DNA of 64,000 bases from Janthinobacterium tructae (lineage in GTDB: Bacteria > Pseudomonadota > Gammaproteobacteria > Burkholderiales > Burkholderiaceae_D). Shown one piece after another: positions 8,228-19,959 of the stretch. The notes below the pieces were generated by a model. It did no database searches and was not told where the DNA came from. It saw only the letters and a program-made list of their open reading frames with translations. The DNA is taken from the NCBI RefSeq assembly GCF_006517255.1, contig NZ_CP041185.1:5394001-5458000 (forward strand), in the 5' to 3' direction. A program made the translations under genes and the position numbers. Each line of letters starts with the position of its first letter. Within the stretch, counting starts at the first letter, position 1.

Positions 8228-8318
8228 GGAGAGATGGCTGAGCGGCTGAAGGCGCACGCCTGGAAAGCGTGTATAGGGTAATACTCTATCGGGGGTTCGA
8301 ATCCCCCTCTCTCCGCCA
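8228..8318 (+). tRNA. tRNA-Ser(GGA), island insertion site
   Basis: Starts GGAGAGATGGCTGAGC, anticodon GGA in CTGGAAA, a long variable arm (TATAGGGTAATACTCTATC), T-arm GGGGGTTCGAATCCCCC, acceptor end TCTCTCC plus G and encoded CCA. 91 nt with CCA. Its 3' part is repeated at 19944-19959, and a tyrosine integrase gene follows directly, which marks this tRNA as the attachment site. Confidence 0.96.
8296..8311 (+). repeat. 16-bp direct repeat, putative attL (inside tRNA-Ser)
   Basis: TTCGAATCCCCCTCTC in the T-arm and acceptor part of tRNA-Ser. It matches 19944-19959 base for base. Together with the adjacent integrase it defines the likely left end of the island. Confidence 0.75.
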
Positions 8319-8363
8319 AAGATACAAATTGGCCAGTTCAAGGAAGTCCCAGAACGTCCACAA

Positions 8364-8398
8364 AAAACCGTTTTAGCCCGTGCTAAAGCGGTTTTTTT
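8364..8398 (+). terminator. terminator after tRNA-Ser
   Basis: AAAAACCG..TTTAGC pairs with GCTAAAGCGGTTTTT, ending in seven Ts. It follows the tRNA by about 45 bp and separates it from the integrase. Confidence 0.75.
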
Positions 8399-8409
8399 GT
8401 ATTCTGGCG

Positions 8410-8469
8410 TCCAGTACTGTCCAGCTGCATCCAGCTCATCGGGGGGCATTACCTAGGTCGTATGCCCCC
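8410..8469. promoter_or_regulatory. phased TCCAG motifs and inverted repeat before the integrase
   Basis: TCCAG occurs at 8410, 8420 and 8430, exactly 10 bp apart, so on one face of the helix. An 8-bp inverted repeat GGGGGCAT/ATGCCCCC (8442-8449 and 8462-8469) follows. The position next to attL suggests integrase arm-type or excisionase sites. This is inference from spacing only. Confidence 0.35.
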
Positions 8470-8538
8470 GGCTCTAGGAACCTTGCCCCCGGAAGTTGGT
8501 CAAAAGTAGTTTCCGGCATTGTGCCGAGGGAGACTACC

Positions 8539-9828
8539 ATGGCCAAGAACAACGTTTCGCTGACCGAGATGCAGGTCAGGAATGCCAAGCCCAGGGAAAA
8601 ACCTTACAAGCTATTTGATGGTGCTGGACTCTATCTTGAAGTCGCAACCAGCGGTTCGCGCATTTGGCGTTTGAAGTTTCGCCAATTGGACGGCAAGGAA
8701 AACCGGCTCACCTTCGGCCCTTATCCAGAAGTTACGCTACAGGATGCGCGAGAAAAGCGTCTGGAGGCGCGTCGATTGCTGCTGAAAGGAATAGACCCCG
8801 CCAAGCATCGCGACGACGCAAGGCGGCTCGCCGCCGAAAAATCCTCCAATACCTTCGAGAAAATCGCCAGGGAGTGGTACGCAAACAAGGTGCCAACATG
8901 GAGCGAGCGTACTGCCAAGAACATGCTGCAGCGTCTTGAAGCCGATATTTTTCCACGGATCGGCGACAGGCCGATCACGGAAATCAGGCACCGCGAATTG
9001 ATTGATACCCTGCGCAAGATCGAGGAGCGCGGCGCCACCGAGATCGCGCATCGCCTGAAGGCCGTCTGCTCGCAGATATTCAGCTACGCCATCCAGTGCG
9101 GCCTGGCCGACCGCAACCTGGTGGTGGACATGAAGGACGTCCTGAAGACCAAACGCGTCTCGCACTTCGCCGCCATCGATGCCGATGAATTGCCCGCCTT
9201 CCTGGACACGCTGGCGCGCAACGAGGCGCGCATGTTCGAGCCGACGCGCATCGCGCTGCGCCTGATGCTGCTGGTCTTCGTGCGCACCAGCGAACTGATA
9301 GAGACGCCATGGAGCGAAGTCGATCTGGAGAAGGGCGAGTGGATCATTCCCTGGCAGCGCATGAAGCGCGGCAAGCTGACCGTCAACCCCGACACGACCA
9401 ATCACCACGTTTGCCTGTCGCGCCAGGCGCTGGCCTTGCTGCGCCAGCTGCACACCATCACAGGCCGCGGCACATATCTGTTTCCCAACCAGCGCGACCA
9501 CGACAAGCCGCTGAGCAACAACACGATGCTGGTGGCGCTGGCCCGCATGGGCTACAAGGGCCGCATGACCGGCCACGGCTTCCGGGCGTTGGCCATGAGT
9601 ACCATCAAGGAGCGCCTGGGTTACCGTCATGAAGTGGTGGACCGCCAGCTGGCGCACGCGCCCAAGGACAAGGTGGCCAGCGCCTACGACCGCGCCCAGT
9701 TCCTGTCGGAGCGCCGCAAGATGATGCAGGAGTGGGCCGACTACCTGGAAGCCGTGGAACGCGGTGATACGCCGCAGCCAGGCCATCATGGATCGCTGGA
9801 ACTGGTGTGGCCAGCGCCGCGTCGTTAA
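8539..9828 (+). CDS. P4-family tyrosine integrase
   Basis: 429 residues. Site-specific recombinase of the island. The N-terminal arm-binding domain (DUF4102; LTEMQVRNAKPREKPYKLFDG, GLYLEV, FGPYPEVTLQDAR) spans about 1-90, a core-binding SAM-like domain about 100-190, and the catalytic domain follows. Catalytic residues are the first Arg in VFVRTSELIE, HGFRA for the H-x-x-R box, and the nucleophile Tyr in ASAYDRAQFLSERRKMMQEWADYLE. ATG at 8539. The gene is intact and next to tRNA-Ser. It ends 10 bp before the next gene, which has its own arm domain. Confidence 0.95.
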   Translation: MAKNNVSLTEMQVRNAKPREKPYKLFDGAGLYLEVATSGSRIWRLKFRQLDGKENRLTFGPYPEVTLQDAREKRLEARRLLLKGIDPAKHRDDARRLAAEKSSNTFEKIAREWYANKVPTWSERTAKNMLQRLEADIFPRIGDRPITEIRHRELIDTLRKIEERGATEIAHRLKAVCSQIFSYAIQCGLADRNLVVDMKDVLKTKRVSHFAAIDADELPAFLDTLARNEARMFEPTRIALRLMLLVFVRTSELIETPWSEVDLEKGEWIIPWQRMKRGKLTVNPDTTNHHVCLSRQALALLRQLHTITGRGTYLFPNQRDHDKPLSNNTMLVALARMGYKGRMTGHGFRALAMSTIKERLGYRHEVVDRQLAHAPKDKVASAYDRAQFLSERRKMMQEWADYLEAVERGDTPQPGHHGSLELVWPAPRR

Positions 9829-9838
9829 GGAGACAGCC

Positions 9839-10462
9839 ATGCCAAGACGAATTGAACCTCTGACAGAGCAACAGCTGATACAGGCGGAGCCTGGGGACAA
9901 ACCATTCAGGTTATTCGACGGCTACGGCCTGTATGTTGAAGTCATGCCGACTGGCTCGAAGGTCTGGCGCATGAAATTTCGCCAGAAGGACGGCAAGGAA
10001 AATGCCCTGACATTCGGCCACTACCCGGAGGTATCGCCAACGCTTGCTCGATGCCGCCGCGCAGTCGCACGCCAGATGCTGCATGATGGGCTGGACCCGC
10101 GTACAGAGTTCGACGCGGCCCACATGCGTCCACCGAAGCCCGTCAGGCGGCATTGCCTCCTTCCAGTTGCCATGGACGATAGAAAGGTGGAGCGCTGCGT
10201 AAGCCAAGTTGGCAGGCAAGCGTTGGAGCAGTTGCACGGCCTTGTGTTCCCGGCGCTGAGCCGCGTCGTGGCCGAGGAAGGTGTGAGAAGCGACATGCAG
10301 ATCATACTGGAGAAAATCCAGAAGGAGCGCAGCGCCGAAGTGATTGATTTGCTGTACGACTACTGCGCCGACATCATCTTTGGCTGCCTTGGATTGGGCA
10401 TTGATGAAGATTATTTGATCGAGGCCATGAGGGATGCCAGGGTGGCGCAGCGGCGGAGGTGA
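9839..10462 (+). CDS. orphan integrase-arm-domain protein, unknown C-terminal part
   Basis: 207 residues, ATG at 9839 with AAGGAGACAGCC ahead of it, probably co-transcribed with the integrase. Residues 1-90 are a second DUF4102 arm DNA-binding domain, close to that of the neighbour (KPFRLFDGYGLYVEV, WRMKFRQKDGKENALTFGHYPEV). The core-binding and catalytic domains are missing. Instead about 115 residues of unrecognised, helix-rich sequence follow (LHGLVFPALSRVVAEEG, MQIILEKIQKERSAEVIDLLYDYCADIIFG). It cannot recombine DNA. It may bind the same arm sites and modulate integration, or it may be a remnant fused to another sequence. Confidence 0.7.
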   Translation: MPRRIEPLTEQQLIQAEPGDKPFRLFDGYGLYVEVMPTGSKVWRMKFRQKDGKENALTFGHYPEVSPTLARCRRAVARQMLHDGLDPRTEFDAAHMRPPKPVRRHCLLPVAMDDRKVERCVSQVGRQALEQLHGLVFPALSRVVAEEGVRSDMQIILEKIQKERSAEVIDLLYDYCADIIFGCLGLGIDEDYLIEAMRDARVAQRRR

Positions 10463-10501
10463 GCGTATCTATGCCGCAGGTATCCCGGTACTTTTCCGGC
10501 T

Positions 10502-10819
10502 TCATTTGGCTCTGGTCCCTTTGTTACCGATTGGCCTGATGCTTGATGAAGTGTCGATTATTGAGGATGCCGTGTTTGCAGGTCTGCTGGCCTCGATACA
10601 CGCTTGCATCCAACGTAGCACCTCGCTTCTGAGCCATGCAGAGGAGCGTCCCTGCAGCTTGACAGGGGCGGGGAAGCGGCCTTCCTTGACGCCTGCATAA
10701 ACGCTGCTGCGCGACTTGCCGCAGGTTGCCAGCACTTCGCCCAGGCGGATGAAGCGCTCTTCGCCCATGCGAGGTTCCACGCGGCGCTCTTTCAGGTATT
10801 CGGCTGTCGCTGCTTTCAT
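10502..10819 (-). CDS. AlpA-family regulator/excisionase-like protein
   Basis: 105 residues, convergent with the preceding gene. A MerR-like winged-helix segment, RFIRLGEVLATCGKSRSSVYAGVKEGRFPAPVKLQGRSSAWLRSEVLRWM, matches the AlpA (Phage_AlpA) family, which controls integrase expression and excision in P4-like islands. ATG at 10819. A second start at Met18 (MGEERFIRL) is possible. The C-terminal 25 residues are low in recognisable structure. Confidence 0.85.
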   Translation of the reverse strand: MKAATAEYLKERRVEPRMGEERFIRLGEVLATCGKSRSSVYAGVKEGRFPAPVKLQGRSSAWLRSEVLRWMQACIEASRPANTASSIIDTSSSIRPIGNKGTRAK

Positions 10820-11411
10820 GGCGTCCCCCTTCGTGAATCAAAAATGCCAGCGGCAGCACCGGGGCGAATGGCATATGCCGCAGGCCTTGCCCTGCGACCG
10901 ATTCGTCCTTCGTCGAGACGCGCTCGCAATCATTATTCCGAAAACATGGGTCCAGTATCGAATGCCGTAATCGCTGGTGCAACAAGAATCGGCCTGCCAT
11001 GCCACTTGGATCAAGCCTGCCGCGCACTTTGTGTGAGATCAAGGCTGGACACAGGAGCGGGTTCGTGGAAGCTTTAGCAGCTAAAAATTCGGCAATCGAC
11101 AGCGCATTCTTCATGTGATAGATACATTGGCGCGGCCCAGATTTCATTGCTCCTGTTGCTGTATCGCCGCCACATGTGCATGCGACTGCTGGCATCTCAC
11201 GCCATCAATACCTGTCAGCAATCGTTTTGACCGCCTCCAGGGGGAGCTCTTTCTGTCCACGCGGAAAGGCGCAGCCATCGGGGGAGAAGCGTGCTATTGC
11301 CGTGTAGTACTCGTACAGCAGACTATGAAAATTTGTTCCTGACATTGATCAAGGTCGGCCCAGATGCATGTCAAATGTTCCCACTTGGACGCTGCCAATT
11401 GCCGCTGATCA

Positions 11412-11637
11412 ACCGTGCTACTTTCGGCATACATTCCTGCTAAATCTGCTCTCGTACCTGCAAAAAAATGGTTTGGTCGTGGTGTTACCCGGTGATTTAA
11501 GGGTTTCAGTCGCTGCACAGGGCGGAACTACCGTGCTAGTTTCGGCATACATTCCTGCTAAATTTGCTCTCGTACCTGCAAAAAAATGGTTCGGTCGAAG
11601 TTGCGTCCGATGATTTTTGTGGTTTAGTCGCTGCGCG
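11412..11637 (+). repeat. two imperfect tandem repeats, period 118 bp
   Basis: 11412-11529 and 11530-about 11637 are two copies. The first about 68 bp of each copy are nearly identical (ACCGTGCTA, TTTCGGCATACATTCCTGC, CTCGTACCTGCAAAAAAATG) and the remainder is diverged but alignable, ending in AGTCGCTGC in both. The function is unknown. Confidence 0.75.
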
Positions 11638-11653
11638 AAGCGGGGCAGGATAG

Positions 11654-11688
11654 GTGAAGTTAGCTAACCTTTGGTTAGCTAACTTCAC
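11654..11688. repeat. perfect 16-bp inverted repeat, 3-nt loop
   Basis: GTGAAGTTAGCTAACC (11654-11669), TTT, GGTTAGCTAACTTCAC (11673-11688). There is no T-run after it, so it is not a classical terminator. It lies 38 bp left of the IS element end. Confidence 0.85.
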
Positions 11689-11790
11689 ACCTGCTTATTC
11701 GCACCTGCGGTGCTCAACGGTCAATGTGTAGTGGTTTAATGTACCCGGACACTGATTTAGGCGAGAATGCTCGCCATGGAGAGGTGTTTG

Positions 11791-12000
11791 ATGAGCAAGC
11801 AAAGACGTACGTTTTCCCCTGAGTTCAAACGGCAGGCGGCATGCCTGGTACTGGATCAAGGATATAGCCATACAGAGGCAAGCCGGTCGGTCGGCATCGG
11901 CGAATCAGTGCTGCGCCGCTGGGTGCAGCAGCTTCAGTTGGAGCGGCAAGGCATCACGCCACAGAGTAAGGCAATGACGCCTGATCAGCAGCGAATATAG
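11791..12000 (+). pseudogene. IS3 orfA, truncated by a stop codon
   Basis: 69 residues of the helix-turn-helix protein OrfA (RRTFSPEFKRQAACLVLDQG, VLRRWVQQLQLERQG). After DQQRI the frame meets TAG at 11998, where family members usually have Gln (CAG). The sequence beyond still encodes the leucine-zipper part ([18 protein letters not shown]). A second lesion is likely at the A-run 12048-12053: relative to the orfA pattern [10 protein letters not shown] as I recall it, one A seems missing, which shifts the frame. Both inferences rest on memory of related elements. Confidence 0.75.
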
Positions 12001-12049
12001 GAACTCGAAGCACGCATTGAGCGTCTCGAGCGGGAGAAGTCCATTTTAA

Positions 12050-12952
<903 letters not shown>

Positions 12953-12960
12953 CCACTACA

Positions 12961-13292
12961 AAGTGCTGAGTGGCTGCCCCAAATAGGGGCAGGCTATGTC
13001 TGTCCCATCAAAAAGCCTCGCCCAATCCGAATTTTGATGCCAATATATCAACACAAGGGTTGTGTTGAGGAACTTGAGCGGGATGATGACGTTCTTTTTC
13101 TGCAAAAATTGCTCATGAGCAATCACTTTGGATACGAGTGTGTGCTTATTCCGTAGTGCTCGTTTGATGCAGAATTGGCCTGCGTAGCGCTATCCTTAAT
13201 TTCTTGCGGGCACTGACATCCTATAGTGACTGATGGTATGCTTGATGCAATAGCAACTTGACGCAGATTGCCGTAGACAATTAGGTACTTTA
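12961..13292. other. 332-bp leader before the HamA-like gene
   Basis: Between the IS end and the defence genes. A short hairpin TGCCCC-AAATA-GGGGCA lies at 12975-12991. No gene seen. It presumably contains the promoter of the two-gene operon; a TTGACG at about 13257 is the only weak candidate -35. Confidence 0.4.
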
Positions 13293-14075
13293 ATGCCATT
13301 AACTTTCAAGCCGATAAAAGATAAAACCAATTGGGCGGGCTGCCGGTGGGAGGTCGTAGATGACGACAAGCTTGCAGAGCTTATCGCACGAGTAGCCATG
13401 GGGCAGAGTAGGTACGTTCGCCGTGTACTTACTGAGTTAAGCGTTAGCGCGACAAAAGGGAAGTCAACGGCCTTAGACGGCGCAATTAAACTTCTTACAG
13501 TTGTAGATCCAGAATATCCCTTTCATCGGGATGGCTGGATGTTTCAAGTGATATCTTGGATTTCAGCGCATATGCAGGGTCTTGCAGACGTTATTGCATA
13601 TCCGCACACTATTCATGCCCATAAGGGATTCGATGGTGTCCATGTCCAATTCGATAAGAAAAAAAGATCGGTTTCGTTGGTTGTTATTTGCGAAGAGAAA
13701 GCAACGACAAATACGAAAAATTTGGTTGGTCGTATTTGGAAAGAGTTTGCGGAAATGGAATTGGGCAATCGTGACAATGAACTAACAGATCAATTAACCC
13801 ATCTTTTAGAAAATCGATCAGATATCGATGTCGATAAAGCAATTGAGGAAGTTATATGGAAAGATGCAAGGGCGTATCGGGTTTCGGTCACTATCGATGA
13901 TAAGTTTAATAGCGACGCGGGCTATGCTAATTTATTCAAGGGATATTCGACTACCATTTCTGGAAAAATAGATCGACGTCGGAGCGAAGTATTTTACTCT
14001 TCTGATATAAGAGATTGGTTCGATAAGTTGGCGGTTAAATCTATTGAATTCGCCAAAAAAATGGAAAAAAACTAA
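13293..14075 (+). CDS. HamA-like (DUF1837-type) putative nuclease of a Hachiman-like system
   Basis: 260 residues, AT-rich. A PD-(D/E)xK-type core is visible: D114 in GFDGV, then beta-strands VHVQF and VSLVVI leading to E134-E135-K136 (CEEKATTN). In published Hachiman systems HamA (DUF1837) is a nuclease with an E-x-K active site and is encoded directly upstream of helicase HamB; the same order is seen here. The stop TAA overlaps the next gene's ATG by one base (14075), so translation is coupled. The family assignment comes from gene order, size and the nuclease motif. It was not tested by search. A YfjL/AbpA-type relative is the main alternative. Confidence 0.7.
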   Translation: MPLTFKPIKDKTNWAGCRWEVVDDDKLAELIARVAMGQSRYVRRVLTELSVSATKGKSTALDGAIKLLTVVDPEYPFHRDGWMFQVISWISAHMQGLADVIAYPHTIHAHKGFDGVHVQFDKKKRSVSLVVICEEKATTNTKNLVGRIWKEFAEMELGNRDNELTDQLTHLLENRSDIDVDKAIEEVIWKDARAYRVSVTIDDKFNSDAGYANLFKGYSTTISGKIDRRRSEVFYSSDIRDWFDKLAVKSIEFAKKMEKN

Positions 14076-17000
14076 TGTACGATCCGATAACATCTCGTCT
14101 AATTAGAAGCTCCCCTCCTTTACAGGGTCTGGACAGAGATCGCTTGCCCGAAGAGATGGCCAAGGTATTTGCGGAAATATCTGCTGCACGCCTGCGCATT
14201 CGTGAAGGATTGGACGTCGAGACAGATGCTCTTAGAGGTGTGATTAATCGAATGCGTCGTTTAGCTCTGACTAACGAGGCATTGGTAGCAAGTACTCCGA
14301 ATCGATTGGATAGAGCCTCTGCTGCATTCGTTGCGGGGTCGGCCCATGTGCTAAGTTTTAACGCAAATAGCATTCTTGGAGATGCACCAAATCGTAGTTA
14401 CTTGGGTGCTCAAAGTATATCTACGGACTTAGCTGCAATACTTTTATTTTTAATTGCAGAGGCTACTCCGGATGCTGCGGAACTTGCTACTAAAATTCAG
14501 GCAGAAGATGGCCAAAATCCAATCGTTTTGAGCTTAATTGGTGCTGTACAAGGAATTGCGAAGGGAGAGCTTGAGCAGTTGTGTCAGCAAACGATACCAA
14601 CACTCGATCTCGGAAATTACGATTCTATGGCAGATGCTGCTATCCAAGCGCTCTACTTGGAAATCTTAAAAGGCGTCATTCGTCTAGCTCAAGAACTGTT
14701 GCATATCCAAGACCTGCAGTCGGAAAATGCTCAAGAGATATTTTTCCGGGTCAAAGGCTTAGCATCGGCAGCTCCCGATGACCAGGAATGGCTTACGAAA
14801 GAGATTGGTGCCTTCTCCGGCCCCCATCATTTAGCGTCGTTGCTTATAGCGTTAAGCTTAGATTTACCGGGGATAACAATTCATGGTATCCCCCCGCCTA
14901 CTGGGGTGTCTCCAGAAAAATGGCGGGAATCTATTCGACGGATTGCAATTGGAAGACCATATCTTTGGCGAAATCATCGTGAGGCGATTGATAAAGGGTA
15001 TTTGAACCCTGGGGTTTCTGCTGCCGTAGGATTTCCAACTGGGGCGGGGAAGTCAACTCTTTCAGAATTAAAAATTAACTCAACGTTGTTAATGGGTAAG
15101 AAAGTTGTGTTCCTCGCACCCACTAATGCGTTGGTCGGGCAGGTAACAGCCGCGCTAAAGCGAGTTTTTCCCAGTGAGCATGTAACCCAAGAAAATCTAC
15201 TAGATATCTCCTTCAACGACATCTCGACAAATACCCCAGAAGTGGTCGTGATGACGCCGGAAGCATGCCTTGCGCAAATCAGTGTCAATCCTTCGGGATT
15301 TGAAGATGTTGGCATGTTAGTGTTTGACGAGTGCCATCTGCTTCACAATGACGCTAACGCTTTCGGGAGGAGGGCTCTCGACTCAATGCTTTGTATACTC
15401 GGCTTCGCCTCTTTGGCACCCTCAGCAGACTTCCTCTTACTCTCTGCAATGATGAAAAACACTGGCGAAATTGCCAGTTGGCTACAGAGCTTTACCGGCC
15501 GTCCTTGCTTGGAACTCTCACTTGCTTGGAAACCTACTCGACAGCTAAGAGGGAGTGTTGTTTATCGACAAGTCGAACTAGAAGAGCTTTCTAAAGGACT
15601 TGTAATATCTAGCAAAGTTGGAAAAACAATTGCTCCTTCTACTAAAGACAAGGAAGCGTTAATCTGCCAACCTTTAGGGCTTTTCGGATTGCAACAGACT
15701 TGGGCAACTAGGAAGAAAGTGGATTATGCGCTACTGCCGCTGCTTAGTGAAAATATCAATCTTGGCGCCAATAAGTACTGGAAGATTACGCCTAATTCTG
15801 GTGAAGTTTCTTCTCGAATTGCAAATGAAGCTGCAAAGTCGGGATTGAAAACTCTTGTCTTTTTCCAAACTATTAAAAATGCTGCAAGCGCGGTTGCTAA
15901 ATTAAAAAAGCTTGGCGGCAGGACTTCTGTGAGACTTAATGAAAAAGAAAATAAATTATTAAAAATATCTGAGTTGGAAATGGGTGGCGCTGATCATCTT
16001 TATATCGATATAAAGAATGGTCGCCTGAATAATCAGTGTGTTGTTCATCACGGGCTTCTGCTAACGGAGGAACGTCACCTATGCGAATCTATATATGCAC
16101 GCCCAGATGGTGCTGCGGTAATGGTAGCAACCTCTACGGTAGCTCAAGGCATGAATTTTCCTAGCGAATTGGTAATTATTGCAGAAGATAGTAGATTTGA
16201 TGAAAACTTGGATAGACGTAAGGTATTGGAAGCTCAAGATCTTCTTAATGCAGCCGGTCGCGCAGGCCGGGCTGGTTCAAAATCTAATGGTATTGTGTTA
16301 GTTGTTCCAGGTAAAGTTGTTGGAGTTGATTTCAATAAAGGTATAATTGGTAGCCATTGGAATAGTCTGCAGGAAATTTTTGCGCAATCTGATCAATGTT
16401 TAGTTATTGACGATCCGATAACTGCAATACTTGATCGTGTGCATGCTAATACAGCCACCGCCAATGAAGTTGAGCGTTATGTTATTTCCAGACTGGGCAA
16501 TTCAGTGGCAGGGAAAGACGTATCTGAGAAAATTTCAAAAATCATATCAAGGTCTTTAGGAGCTTACCGTGCTATCAAGCAAGGCGACAAAAATTGGATT
16601 TCTGAACGGATTAACGCAGCTATAAAATTCTACGAAAACCATAACAATAATGATGAATTTGATAATGATGAATTGCAGATTGCGTCTACCTTAGGCATAC
16701 CAGTTTCGGTAGTTTCGGCACTGTCAAAAGAGGTCACTCCGGAGCTGATTTTAAAGCTGGATTCGGTCGAAAAATGGTGTAGTTGGATGTTCGCATGGAT
16801 ATCTAGGAATGCTGGATTTTTCAAAATGATTATTCGCGACGATACGCTTGAAGATCTATTTGGCGGCGTATTCGTAAAAATATCGAATGATGATGAGAAA
16901 GCTACCTATGCTTTGCCATATTTAAAAAAACTAACAAAACTATGGATGGCGGGTGCATCACTGTCGAAACTTGAGTTGGCGATGGGGACTGATGTTGATA

Positions 17001-17359
17001 ATTTGAAAGTATGTATAAAGGCTCGACGCTTTGTGTTACGAGTAATTCCAGAGCTAGCCTATTTCTTTGGAATACCTTTATTAGTGCATCAGCACAAAGT
17101 AAAAGACACTGAAATTCCTGTTGAATTTCCCGCTGCTTTGGCGCAGTTTGGCCGATGTGTCAAAGAGGGGTTTGATAGCTATGAAAAGTTTGCTCTTTCT
17201 CAGTTACGTCAAAATATAAATTTATCAAGAATGCAGGTCCATGATCTATTTGGGAAGATTGCGCCCTATTTAGATGAGCCTGCTAAGAGTGAAAGCTGGA
17301 AGTCGGCATTTAATCGCGTTAGGGGTGCACGTGATTCTTATGAAGATGATGACATGTAA
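14075..17359 (+). CDS. HamB-like Ski2-type superfamily 2 helicase
   Basis: 1094 residues. Motif I GFPTGAGKS (319-327), Ia FLAPTNALVGQ (346-356), II DECH (418-421), III LLSAMM (455-460), V VATSTVAQGMNFP (684-696) and VI QDLLNAAGRAGRAG (721-734) make a complete DExH helicase core. Motif VI of form AGRAGRAG is Ski2/HamB-like. About 300 helix-rich residues precede the core and about 350 follow. Coupled by a 1-nt overlap to the nuclease-like gene. In Hachiman, HamB is thought to watch for abnormal DNA and release HamA nuclease activity; that role is inferred here. Codon use is AT-rich, unlike the chromosome around it. Confidence 0.78.
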   Translation: MYDPITSRLIRSSPPLQGLDRDRLPEEMAKVFAEISAARLRIREGLDVETDALRGVINRMRRLALTNEALVASTPNRLDRASAAFVAGSAHVLSFNANSILGDAPNRSYLGAQSISTDLAAILLFLIAEATPDAAELATKIQAEDGQNPIVLSLIGAVQGIAKGELEQLCQQTIPTLDLGNYDSMADAAIQALYLEILKGVIRLAQELLHIQDLQSENAQEIFFRVKGLASAAPDDQEWLTKEIGAFSGPHHLASLLIALSLDLPGITIHGIPPPTGVSPEKWRESIRRIAIGRPYLWRNHREAIDKGYLNPGVSAAVGFPTGAGKSTLSELKINSTLLMGKKVVFLAPTNALVGQVTAALKRVFPSEHVTQENLLDISFNDISTNTPEVVVMTPEACLAQISVNPSGFEDVGMLVFDECHLLHNDANAFGRRALDSMLCILGFASLAPSADFLLLSAMMKNTGEIASWLQSFTGRPCLELSLAWKPTRQLRGSVVYRQVELEELSKGLVISSKVGKTIAPSTKDKEALICQPLGLFGLQQTWATRKKVDYALLPLLSENINLGANKYWKITPNSGEVSSRIANEAAKSGLKTLVFFQTIKNAASAVAKLKKLGGRTSVRLNEKENKLLKISELEMGGADHLYIDIKNGRLNNQCVVHHGLLLTEERHLCESIYARPDGAAVMVATSTVAQGMNFPSELVIIAEDSRFDENLDRRKVLEAQDLLNAAGRAGRAGSKSNGIVLVVPGKVVGVDFNKGIIGSHWNSLQEIFAQSDQCLVIDDPITAILDRVHANTATANEVERYVISRLGNSVAGKDVSEKISKIISRSLGAYRAIKQGDKNWISERINAAIKFYENHNNNDEFDNDELQIASTLGIPVSVVSALSKEVTPELILKLDSVEKWCSWMFAWISRNAGFFKMIIRDDTLEDLFGGVFVKISNDDEKATYALPYLKKLTKLWMAGASLSKLELAMGTDVDNLKVCIKARRFVLRVIPELAYFFGIPLLVHQHKVKDTEIPVEFPAALAQFGRCVKEGFDSYEKFALSQLRQNINLSRMQVHDLFGKIAPYLDEPAKSESWKSAFNRVRGARDSYEDDDM

Positions 17360-17544
17360 TTTCCATGAATTCTTGTTGATAAATTCCATATAGTGAGTAG
17401 ATTAATATATGGCGTCTGAGCAAATCTCAACTATTGGATACTTGGCAATTGCGAGCGGTGGGGAAGCGCTGGCAGCAACGACATTTACAGGCGCCAAGGG
17501 AATCTTTCGGTTGCCTTCCGCCGCAACGGTTTTTCGGCCGAACA

Positions 17545-18978
17545 TCAAGTTGAGGCATCATCAAGGCCGAAGATTTCAGGTACACGATCTAAAAATTCGC
17601 GATGCCAATTAGAGCGCCTTCTGCGTAGTGTCTCCGAACTGTACTGAAAGCCATGTTGGTGTATGAGTTTTGAAACGTAATCATCAAAATCGGATCGATT
17701 TTTGATTCCTAGTGGTTCTAGCTTATCTTTATTCTGATGTCGATACCTGTAACTATTTTCCGCAATTAATCCAGCCAAACAATATAAGATAGTCTTTTTA
17801 GAGCTGACGATCTTGCGCCGCATCCCATGACTGACGACAAGATGTCGAAGGCTGGGGGGTAATTTCTCGAGAAATTCTGCAGATTCTTTAGGCTTACTAT
17901 GACGCTTTTGCCATTCCAAATTTAGCCGCATCAAGAGAAGTGCCAGTTGCCGCCCAATGTCATGATTGGGATCATCAAGAGGAACAAGTAGGGCCAACGA
18001 ATCAAGAACTCCCTTGTCATATACACGAATATTCGCTCGATCCGAATCGATAATGCTGCGTCGAAGTATTCTAGTTTCTCGGTCATCCCCACTAAACATC
18101 AGTGTTGACGCTCGCAAGAACCAGATGCTGAATTGGCTATAGAAAAAATCGGAGGGGAGAATTTTTACGGCGACGCGTTGAGGGGAGAATCGTGCGTCGG
18201 AGACATATCCATAGTGGTTCAGCTGTGTATAGTGGCTGAGGGCGTTAAGGCTTGTGCGGCTCCCACTGAAACTTGCCAAATCGCTCCAAGAGTAGCACTG
18301 ATCTATCTTTAGTCGAATTTGCTTTGCTGTTGGAAGCAGCTCAGCGACAATTTCCATTCGCTTGATACGGGCAGGATCGGCAGCTATTCCCTCGACCCCC
18401 TTTTCATAGCTCTCGACTTCGGCAATGAGTTCGGACTGAACAATCCTTCCTGGACGGGAAGCAATCGCCATAATGCAAGCCGCTAATGCTGGCACGTGAA
18501 ATGGGAATTGTTCGCGCTCGCCAATCAAACGAATCCTTGTGCGTATTTGCTGCATGATGCGGCCCTTGGGGGTGCGATCATCAAGCGCTGCTTTGGCCTC
18601 CCGCACCAGCGAAACTACGACAAAGTACGGCGCTTTAGTTTCCCGATGGAGGCGCAATAAATCCTTATTAGTCGGCGATATTGACCAGTCTAGCAACGAG
18701 TATGAGAGTCCCCTTTCGTTAACACCAATGTTGTTTGCATGCTGAAGTGAGTTAAGAATCGCCCAGGCGGCTGATTCCCGATCACGTTCCGTCTCGAATA
18801 TGTGGGAAGACTCTCCAACCTTTTCTTTAACTAGCTTGGATAAGTTGCCAAGTTGCGTGAGTCCGTTACCCTGCTCGTGCTCCCAAGTCATGGTGAGCAA
18901 TAACTGGAGTTCAGCATCCATGAGATCGATAGATGCTGATTCGAATTCATGTAATTTTTGTTTTGTCAAGGGTAGCAT
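17545..18978 (-). CDS. unidentified island protein (477 residues)
   Basis: Reads towards the HamB-like gene, AT-rich. No known motif was recognised. The sequence is soluble-looking and helix-rich, starts MLPLTKQKLHEFESASIDLMDAE, has charged stretches such as HRETKAPYFVVVSLVREAKAAL and ends with a basic segment SSETLRRRRSNWHREFLDRVP. ATG at 18978 was chosen. A 25-residue longer frame begins with TTG at 19053 and would run through the palindrome. It is divergent from the 93-residue gene across 104 bp. Being inside a defence island, a defence role is possible, but nothing in the sequence shows one. Confidence 0.7.
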   Translation of the reverse strand: MLPLTKQKLHEFESASIDLMDAELQLLLTMTWEHEQGNGLTQLGNLSKLVKEKVGESSHIFETERDRESAAWAILNSLQHANNIGVNERGLSYSLLDWSISPTNKDLLRLHRETKAPYFVVVSLVREAKAALDDRTPKGRIMQQIRTRIRLIGEREQFPFHVPALAACIMAIASRPGRIVQSELIAEVESYEKGVEGIAADPARIKRMEIVAELLPTAKQIRLKIDQCYSWSDLASFSGSRTSLNALSHYTQLNHYGYVSDARFSPQRVAVKILPSDFFYSQFSIWFLRASTLMFSGDDRETRILRRSIIDSDRANIRVYDKGVLDSLALLVPLDDPNHDIGRQLALLLMRLNLEWQKRHSKPKESAEFLEKLPPSLRHLVVSHGMRRKIVSSKKTILYCLAGLIAENSYRYRHQNKDKLEPLGIKNRSDFDDYVSKLIHQHGFQYSSETLRRRRSNWHREFLDRVPEIFGLDDAST

Positions 18979-19035
18979 TCGTCGTGGTAGATGTGGACAT
19001 TTTATCCCTATCTTGAATGGGGCAGAATACCTAAC

Positions 19036-19051
19036 GGTGAACGAGTTCACC
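19036..19051. promoter_or_regulatory. palindromic operator candidate between divergent genes
   Basis: GGTGAAC-GA-GTTCACC, a perfect 7-bp inverted repeat with a 2-bp centre, 58 bp from one start and 32 bp from the other. This is the usual form of a dimeric helix-turn-helix repressor site. Confidence 0.55.
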
Positions 19052-19082
19052 AAAAACCTACCCCTAACTACGGAGTCATAGC

Positions 19083-19364
19083 ATGCTTACCAATGCAATT
19101 AAGCAAGTATCCGGCACTGCCGGTGAGGCGCTCGAAATGCGCGCGTATCAAAAACTCAAAGATCGCTACAAAGACGATGGTGTCATAAAGGCAATCATTG
19201 AGGGTGAGTTGCGCTCAGCAGGCGAGACGATGGAGTCGTTCAATATCTACCTCCGTGTAAAGACGAAAGTGCAAAACGACAAAATCAGCATCGTTCGCGC
19301 TGAAAAAGAAGCCGAGGAGCTTGCACAGAACTACCTGGGCTCAACCGGTTTTCGTAATGACTAA
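19083..19364 (+). CDS. small unidentified island protein (93 residues)
   Basis: ATG at 19083 with CGGAG about 10 bp upstream. Helix-rich, charged, no membrane segment: KQVSGTAGEALEMRAYQKLKDRYKDDGV, then ELRSAGETMESFNIYLRVKTK and a C-terminal helix EKEAEELAQNYLG. A clear terminator follows at 19388, supporting a real transcript. It may be the partner of the divergent 477-residue gene. Family not recognised. Confidence 0.65.
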   Translation: MLTNAIKQVSGTAGEALEMRAYQKLKDRYKDDGVIKAIIEGELRSAGETMESFNIYLRVKTKVQNDKISIVRAEKEAEELAQNYLGSTGFRND

Positions 19365-19387
19365 TCTGCAATTTTGAGCCTGACTCG

Positions 19388-19425
19388 AATCGGCGGCCGT
19401 CAATTTACGATAGCCGCCGATTTTT
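19388..19425 (+). terminator. terminator after the 93-residue gene
   Basis: AATCGGCGGC (19388-19397) pairs with GCCGCCGATT (19413-19422) and runs into TTTTT. Confidence 0.85.
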
Positions 19426-19708
19426 ATTTGTAACTCACTTAACCCCGTTACCACGCTCCCACTGTGCGTTGCCACTGCTGTATATTGGCTACTATGACGG
19501 CTCATTTTTTGGGAAAATTGGGGAAAATTTTTACGCCCCCTGCTTCGACAGTGGCGATAGTCATGGGGGAAATGTCTGAGGTGTCACTCGTTCACCTACT
19601 ATCACTTCTTTTACTCGTACAGCAGCGGCAGCGTGCGCAAGCCTACAGCCTAGGATTGGCCGTACCTAATAGGTATCCTACCTATAGGCTATCTTTAGTA
19701 AGAGCGAA

Positions 19709-19742
19709 AAAAAGAGCTACGGGCAAGTGCGCGTAACTCTTT
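19709..19742 (-). terminator. hairpin behind the tRNA-Phe fragment
   Basis: On the minus strand AAAGAGTTACG pairs (one mismatch) with CGTAGCTCTTT and runs into TTTTTTT. It sits where a tRNA-Phe terminator would be, so the fragment arrived with its own downstream flank. Confidence 0.6.
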
Positions 19743-19760
19743 GATTTTATTGCTTATTAT

Positions 19761-19810
19761 TGGTGGCCCGGGGCGGAATCGAACCACCGACACAAGGATT
19801 TTCAATCCTT
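19761..19810 (-). pseudogene. tRNA-Phe(GAA) 3' half
   Basis: Minus strand: anticodon arm AGGATTGAAAATCCT, variable loop, T-arm GGTGGTTCGATTCCGCC and acceptor end CCGGGCC with ACCA. The D-arm and 5' acceptor strand (GGCCCGG) are absent; the sequence upstream is unrelated. Such 3' halves are typical attachment-site copies left by tRNA-targeting islands. Confidence 0.85.
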
Positions 19811-19943
19811 AGCTCGAATGGATATTTTTTGTTGCATTAATTCATGGTGTAGGTAGCCAACTTTTTGGTAAGGGCATCGTTGGGGGTATTCTTTAATCTA
19901 CCATCCGTCGAAATCAGCCATCCATGCGCTTTGCCAGCTATGA

Positions 19944-19959
19944 TTCGAATCCCCCTCTC
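19944..19959 (+). repeat. 16-bp direct repeat, putative attR
   Basis: TTCGAATCCCCCTCTC, identical to 8296-8311 inside tRNA-Ser. Beyond it the sequence differs (GCTTCG against TCCGCC) and normal high-GC chromosome begins. Confidence 0.72.

Follow-up and report, generated by a model that had tools for sequence, protein, structure and literature searches.

Two adjacent genes in a tRNA-Ser-associated island of Janthinobacterium tructae, found in a 64,000-nucleotide stretch of contig NZ_CP041185.1 (hereafter, the window), very probably encode a HamAB-type genome-integrity sensor, which would place them on a strongly diverged branch of Hachiman, an anti-phage system. The first gene (13293-14075, + strand) encodes a HamA-like PD-(D/E)xK nuclease of 260 amino acids (aa), recognized from its AlphaFold 2 (AF2) model, its fold match and an invariant D/E/K triad. 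The second gene (14075-17359, + strand) encodes a HamB-like Ski2/Hel308-type DExH helicase of 1094 aa, recognized from a PADLOC HamB1 model, its AF2 model, Foldseek and VIA-align. The initial annotation had proposed a Hachiman-like pair made of these two open reading frames (ORFs) with a 1-nt overlap, and both the frames and the overlap were recovered, with one base shared by the nuclease stop codon (TAA, 14073-14075) and the helicase start codon (ATG, 14075-14077). The identity proposed at that stage is also borne out, considering that the two HamAB subunits are the best Foldseek matches, that the nuclease gene lies directly upstream of the helicase gene and in the same direction, as is the case in Hachiman, and that the same genomic site carries defence genes in congeners.

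The predicted structure of the small protein provides the principal link to HamA. Its AF2 model reached a predicted local distance difference test (pLDDT) score of 90.6, and both Foldseek and VIA-align returned HamA (8vx9_A) as the best match, so that the structure prediction suggested with the initial annotation yielded the fold expected for Hachiman, albeit at an identity of 7% in the VIA-align alignment. The residues originally singled out as the nuclease core (D114, E134, E135 and K136) were found at those positions; D114, E134 and K136 are invariant in 47/47 relatives (set A1) and in 19/19 members of a more divergent set (A2). They correspond to the D-E(x)K catalytic site of Hachiman, an assignment made through motif and spacing rather than superposition.

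At the sequence level, a single-sequence search with the small protein retrieved 334 homologues (E<=0.01), and a profile built from the 47-member family retrieved 795 (E<=0.001). No precomputed Pfam domain was present in the best 120 of the 334 or the best 120 of the 795. The UniRef name of one homologue, P0103 from Roseovarius albus, is "Anti-bacteriophage protein A/HamA", and that of another, P0014, is "Restriction endonuclease". The small protein had no match in the phage collection searched. Matches to DUF1706 (E 0.0074) and to a ribosome-silencing factor (E 0.059) were dropped, as both fell below curated cut-offs.

For the large protein, the complete set of superfamily 2 (SF2) motifs that had been claimed was located: I (PTGAGKS, 321), Ia (348), Ib (393), II (DECH, 418), III (SAM, 457), IV (594), V (685) and VI (GRAGRAG, 728), as expected for the Ski2-like DExH helicase of Hachiman. 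The PADLOC search proposed for this protein ranked two HamB1 models first (118 and 110 bits; best E 7.8e-35), followed by the candidate model PDC-M23B (102 bits). The best NCBIfam models were of the Hel308 kind (85.6 bits against a cut-off of 887), and among sequences of the Protein Data Bank (PDB), Ski2 helicases with two cassettes (94 and 72 bits) scored above HamB (70 bits). Homologues are abundant, with 1505 at E<=1e-20 among 7999 candidates scored. An AF2 model based on 46 sequences (pLDDT 84.1) comprises a helical region (residues 1-293), RecA1 and RecA2 (about 294-770) and a helical C-terminal part. HamB occupied Foldseek ranks 1-3 for this model (8vx9_B, E 1.9e-24, TMq 0.65, 16% identity), followed by Hel308 (E 3.2e-19, TMq 0.47).

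With respect to the N-terminal region of the helicase, Tuck et al. (PMC12278908) describe an N-terminal helical domain that binds HamA, is present in all HamB proteins and is missing from close Ski2 relatives. The VIA-align match to HamB (8vxa_A) covers 901 helicase residues between 12 and 1094, and since the alignment starts at residue 12 and reaches this total, at least 69 aligned residues must precede residue 263. The other rows listed contain at most 660 aligned residues, and the few that also start before residue 263 (such as 7aju_EN at 5 and 4xgt at 100) contain at most 587. By contrast, the Hel308 and Pol theta helicase rows begin at model residues 262-276 and leave the N-terminal helical region unmatched. 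At the level of the predicted fold, the model therefore appears to contain the N-terminal helical bundle (NAH) of HamB. A longer hhalign match between the helicase and HamB (residues 24-807, probability 99.9%) does not constitute independent evidence for this region, because the region alone gave a probability of only 0.3%.

Several results weigh against placing the pair within Hachiman. Against the Pfam HamA model PF08878 (cut-off 25), the small protein reached 15.9 bits, and its PADLOC HamA score was 13 bits (E 0.012, not accepted). The PF08878 model misses the small protein, and profile A1 misses the PF08878 protein of genome G035. When the 47 relatives were compared by hhalign with six PF08878 proteins (L011-L016), a probability of 15% was obtained, limited to the GFDG...EEK stretch; the value for three further PF08878 proteins (L017-L019) was 1.8%, and with the 19-member set the probabilities were 4.4% and 0.4%. 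PF08878 matches were found in 16/47 relatives at E<0.1 (best E 0.0012, estimated at ~19 bits), and in the more divergent set Pfam HamA matched 2/19 members (E<0.5, best 0.0051) and PADLOC HamA 1/19. Neither phmmer nor a profile search with the small protein listed a HamA among PDB sequences. For the helicase, VIA-align assigned a higher Z score to Hel308 (27.5) than to HamB (22.3), the 0.3% obtained for the N-terminal region against two long HamB proteins indicates no sequence similarity there, and model residues 781-1093 contain no strand of at least three residues, so that the C-terminal oligonucleotide/oligosaccharide-binding (OB) barrel, known here from HamB of Escherichia coli ECOR31, is not seen.

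Judged by sequence rules alone, the small protein is not a HamA. The DUF1837 assignment of the initial annotation accordingly fails, as the protein lies under the Pfam cut-off and PADLOC barely detects either it or its relatives; because it misses the curated HamA sequence definition, the pair cannot be considered a routine Hachiman member. It had been anticipated that, if this assignment failed, the genes would represent a new nuclease-helicase defence pair, which is half correct: the pair is outside the profile-defined HamA family but, according to the predicted models, inside the fold-defined one. In a helicase tree of 23 rows without an outgroup (15 helicases of this family, 2 long HamB and 6 short HamB), the 15 family members formed one branch (support 100/99) apart from all sampled HamB, although the program warned of long branches and uneven letter composition.

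These observations also bear on an alternative explanation, in which a PD-(D/E)xK nuclease was joined independently to a Ski2/Hel308-type helicase to create a separate defence system resembling HamAB by convergence. The lack of a significant sequence or profile link between the small protein and HamA, the position of the helicase family apart from both sampled HamB forms and the missing OB barrel in the model would all suit such an origin. It is nevertheless considered unlikely. Somewhat more plausible, though still speculative, is the idea that the pair represents a third nuclease-helicase sensor lineage beside the two sampled HamB forms, with its own sensing mode, no OB barrel and a nuclease sequence almost wholly rewritten. 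Such a lineage might respond to another type of DNA end or be adapted to competition among mobile elements, and would be mostly missed in surveys as HamA models fall short of its nuclease.

Comparison with characterized systems places the pair nearest to HamAB of E. coli ECOR31 (PDB 8vx9, 8vxa and 8vxy; Tuck et al. 2024, PMC12278908). Both have the A-B gene order, a small D-E(x)K nuclease of the same fold and a large DExH helicase of the Ski2-like type, in which a helical domain at the N terminus precedes two RecA domains (1094 aa here, 1174 aa in ECOR31). Identity, on the other hand, is limited to 7% for the nuclease and 16% for the helicase, motif II reads DECH here and DEGH in HamB, and the C-terminal OB barrel of the ECOR31 protein is not visible in the model of the window helicase. 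Short-helicase Hachiman loci (L043-L046), in which a PF08878 HamA is followed by a helicase of 711-879 aa, have the same nuclease-helicase order. However, their HamA proteins score 115-193 bits against PF08878, compared with 15.9 for the window nuclease, and their helicases align to the window helicase over the core only (309-744) and fall on a separate branch.

AbpAB of E. coli is similar in combining a HamA-like domain with a helicase. VIA-align matched the nuclease to a 531-residue chain of PDB 8zue at 261-537, and this chain is possibly AbpA, judging from its size. AbpA is described as having an N-terminal Cap4 nuclease (PMC10732053) and an inactive HamA site (PMC12278908), whereas the window nuclease is a stand-alone protein of 260 aa with an intact site and a nearly end-to-end HamA match. 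Neither PADLOC nor Pfam gave a Cap4 match in it, and an AbpAB identity was ruled out given the absence of a Cap4 fusion and the small size of the protein. PADLOC Hachiman type II, as outlined in PMC8565338, has a HamC (DUF3223) gene beside hamAB. No HamC gene was detected at the pair: the downstream ORFs at 17545-19053 and 19083-19364 had no PADLOC match (E<=0.1), and the upstream ORFs scanned by Pfam were a transposase, an AlpA-like regulator and integrases, which excluded type II. A further paper (PMC12799240) concerns variants of Hachiman to which a nuclease-protease pair is added; relative to these, no protease gene was identified beside the pair in the window.

Helicases of the Hel308 and Pol theta type, to our knowledge, do not have a HamA-like partner. 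The helicase also matches PDC-M23B of the PADLOC candidate PDC-M23 (E 5.2e-30), yet both HamB1 models score higher; for the small protein there was no match to any PDC-M23 model, and the name "PDC-M23" was not found in the best-ranked part of the literature searched. No description of this nuclease-helicase branch was found in that literature, which left out bioRxiv and most subscription papers.

The association of the two genes is conserved well beyond J. tructae. A helicase gene immediately follows the nuclease gene in 19/21 related loci (own locus not counted). These 19 comprise three loci found through the helicase (L002-L004), five in whole genomes (L023-L027), two on viral contigs (L028-L029) and nine on plasmids (L030-L038); in L023 and L026 the contig terminates within the helicase. 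The junction is an 8-nt overlap in 11 of 14 loci measured, the other three having a 1-nt overlap and gaps of 2 nt and 18 nt. Overlapping genes at the junction suggest that translation of nuclease and helicase is coupled. Neither promoter-like sites (6 vs 10.0 in shuffles) nor terminator-like sites (2 vs 4.1) were enriched. A plasmid search starting from the helicase gave 10 records at E<=1e-20, nine of which also contain the nuclease. When 75 nuclease homologues (of the best 120) whose contigs measure 4.5 kb or more were compared with 119 typed helicase homologues (of the best 120), 37/75 shared their longest-contig size with a helicase homologue, whereas shifted controls (n=100) gave 0.23 such cases on average and never more than 2. 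With 334 nuclease and 1505 helicase homologues and a conserved pairing, the arrangement is not due to chance.

The nuclease is sparsely distributed. In a phylum sample it was detected in 4/398 genomes, the J. tructae genome among them. It was further detected in 1/78 genomes from the class to which one of these four carriers belongs (the same genome again), in 2/385 genomes of another class sample and in 11/72,556 plasmid records, with 6/11 of these plasmids predicted to be conjugative. In three Sulfitobacter plasmids (L030, L038 and L039), a Fic-family gene lies directly 5' of the nuclease gene.

Some relatives are damaged, which raises the question of whether the J. tructae pair is a degraded or inactive Hachiman remnant. 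The two unpaired loci (L039 and L040) have a truncated or fragmented nuclease gene with transposition genes nearby, the helicase of L033 and L034 matches piecewise or is annotated as split, and the tenth plasmid record (L105, Agrobacterium tumefaciens F2) retains a helicase piece adjoining an insertion sequence (IS). The chance that the window pair is such a remnant is nonetheless negligible, since both of its ORFs are full length and every catalytic residue and helicase motif is present. Two of these plasmids have further features of note. In L105, the helicase piece adjoins an IstB/integrase pair, and the surrounding LysR, dehydrogenase and antiporter genes are those that flank the full-length pair of Rhizobium sp. 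ZX09. In L033, from Shewanella putrefaciens, predicted qnr and dfr resistance genes lie near the nuclease and the piecewise-matching helicase that follows it.

The predicted tRNA-Ser island with an integrase was confirmed. ARAGORN places a tRNA-Ser (GGA) gene, the integration target, at 8228-8318 (+); its 3' part holds the left attachment (att) repeat TTCGAATCCCCCTCTC (8296-8311, +), and an exact 16-nt copy at 19944-19959 (+) marks the island end. A phage-type tyrosine integrase (Arm-DNA-bind_3, Phage_int_M and Phage_integrase in Pfam) adjoins the tRNA gene at 8380-9828 (+), followed by a second, partial integrase-like ORF with the arm-binding domain only (9764-10462, +; PF13356), an AlpA-like regulator (10502-10819, -; PF05930) and a transposase ORF (12131-12952; rve and HTH_21 in Pfam). 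The expectation of an AT-rich composition was likewise confirmed, with a guanine-cytosine (GC) content of 0.39-0.49 across 13.0-20.0 kb, whereas the flanks sampled gave 0.62-0.63 (7-8 kb) and 0.59-0.62 (20.5-22 kb).

Searches of 41 genomes (own included) gave seven congeners in which both flanks matched the same contig no more than 20 kb apart. The right-flank match exceeded 450 nt in G416, G407 and G400 and was just 28-30 nt, at the repeat, in G409, G399, G415 and G421; the exact 16-nt repeat bounds the site on both sides in three of six congeners tested (G421, G415 and G399). PADLOC models matched 17/24 selected ORFs from these sites, with matches at all seven (E<=1e-5 in two scans and E<=0.001 in a third), although random island genes may also match such models, a further caution for the Hachiman assignment. 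The matches comprise C5 methyltransferase and type II restriction genes (G416), DRT2 (G407), retron II-A (G409), RT_UG29 (G421), type I restriction-modification (G415), RmrA- and QatC-like genes (G399), and retron III-A PRTase-like and REase_II-like genes (G400). The tRNA-Ser site (8296-19959) is thus read as a likely defence hotspot that would repay mining. One congener carries there a 2698-aa ORF (L101, 5627-13723) that contains a DnaG-type zinc finger, a Toprim domain and a reverse transcriptase and matches PADLOC RT_UG29 with 2778 bits.

This setting is relevant to another proposal, namely that a Hel308-like helicase and a processing nuclease form a repair or recombination pair serving the mobile element rather than immunity. 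Such a role is highly improbable. The helicase was found in 0/36 congeners searched, apart from two weak matches, 7/7 congener sites examined carry genes matching defence models, and HamB surpasses the other Foldseek hits as a full-length match. The weak match in G422 (locus L010) stems from a short HamB-like gene downstream of an ORF with a GEAK motif.

The island contains several additional features. A probable IS3-type element (our label) at 11722-12965, with imperfect 32-nt inverted repeats (11722-11753 and 12934-12965), lies just upstream of the pair, and two tandem 118-nt copies, 81% alike, occupy 11404-11639. After the pair, a 502-aa ORF with a TTG start (17545-19053, -) was matched by no Pfam, NCBIfam or PADLOC model (E<=0.1) and is possibly further island cargo. 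A 93-aa ORF between it and the right att repeat (19083-19364, +) gave sub-threshold Pfam matches only (best E 0.024) and none in PADLOC or NCBIfam.

If the pair is indeed a HamAB-type sensor, its operation may be envisaged as follows. The HamB-like helicase would hold the HamA-like nuclease inactive via its N-terminal helical domain while scanning intact DNA. A free 3' single-stranded DNA end, produced as phage DNA replicates, by recombination or through damage to DNA, would enter the helicase, and the onset of ATP hydrolysis would move the N-terminal bundle so that the nuclease is released or activated. The D114/E134/K136 site would then degrade cellular and phage DNA indiscriminately, so that the phage stops multiplying but the cell is sacrificed. 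All of these steps, from assembly of the complex and inhibition of the nuclease through sensing of 3' ends to degradation of DNA and abortive infection, are inferred by analogy with the E. coli system (PMC12278908), and the shared folds, catalytic triad and pairing make them the most economical reading.

Hachiman is among the better understood DNA-damage-sensing phage defences. Because the nuclease falls short of the cut-off of curated HamA models despite its 795 profile homologues, defence surveys relying on HamA models probably undercount the system. Such a divergent pair also tests which HamAB parts are essential: judging from the predicted models, the catalytic triad of the nuclease and the helical N-terminal region of the helicase are retained, whereas little of the sequence is, and the OB barrel is not seen in the helicase model.

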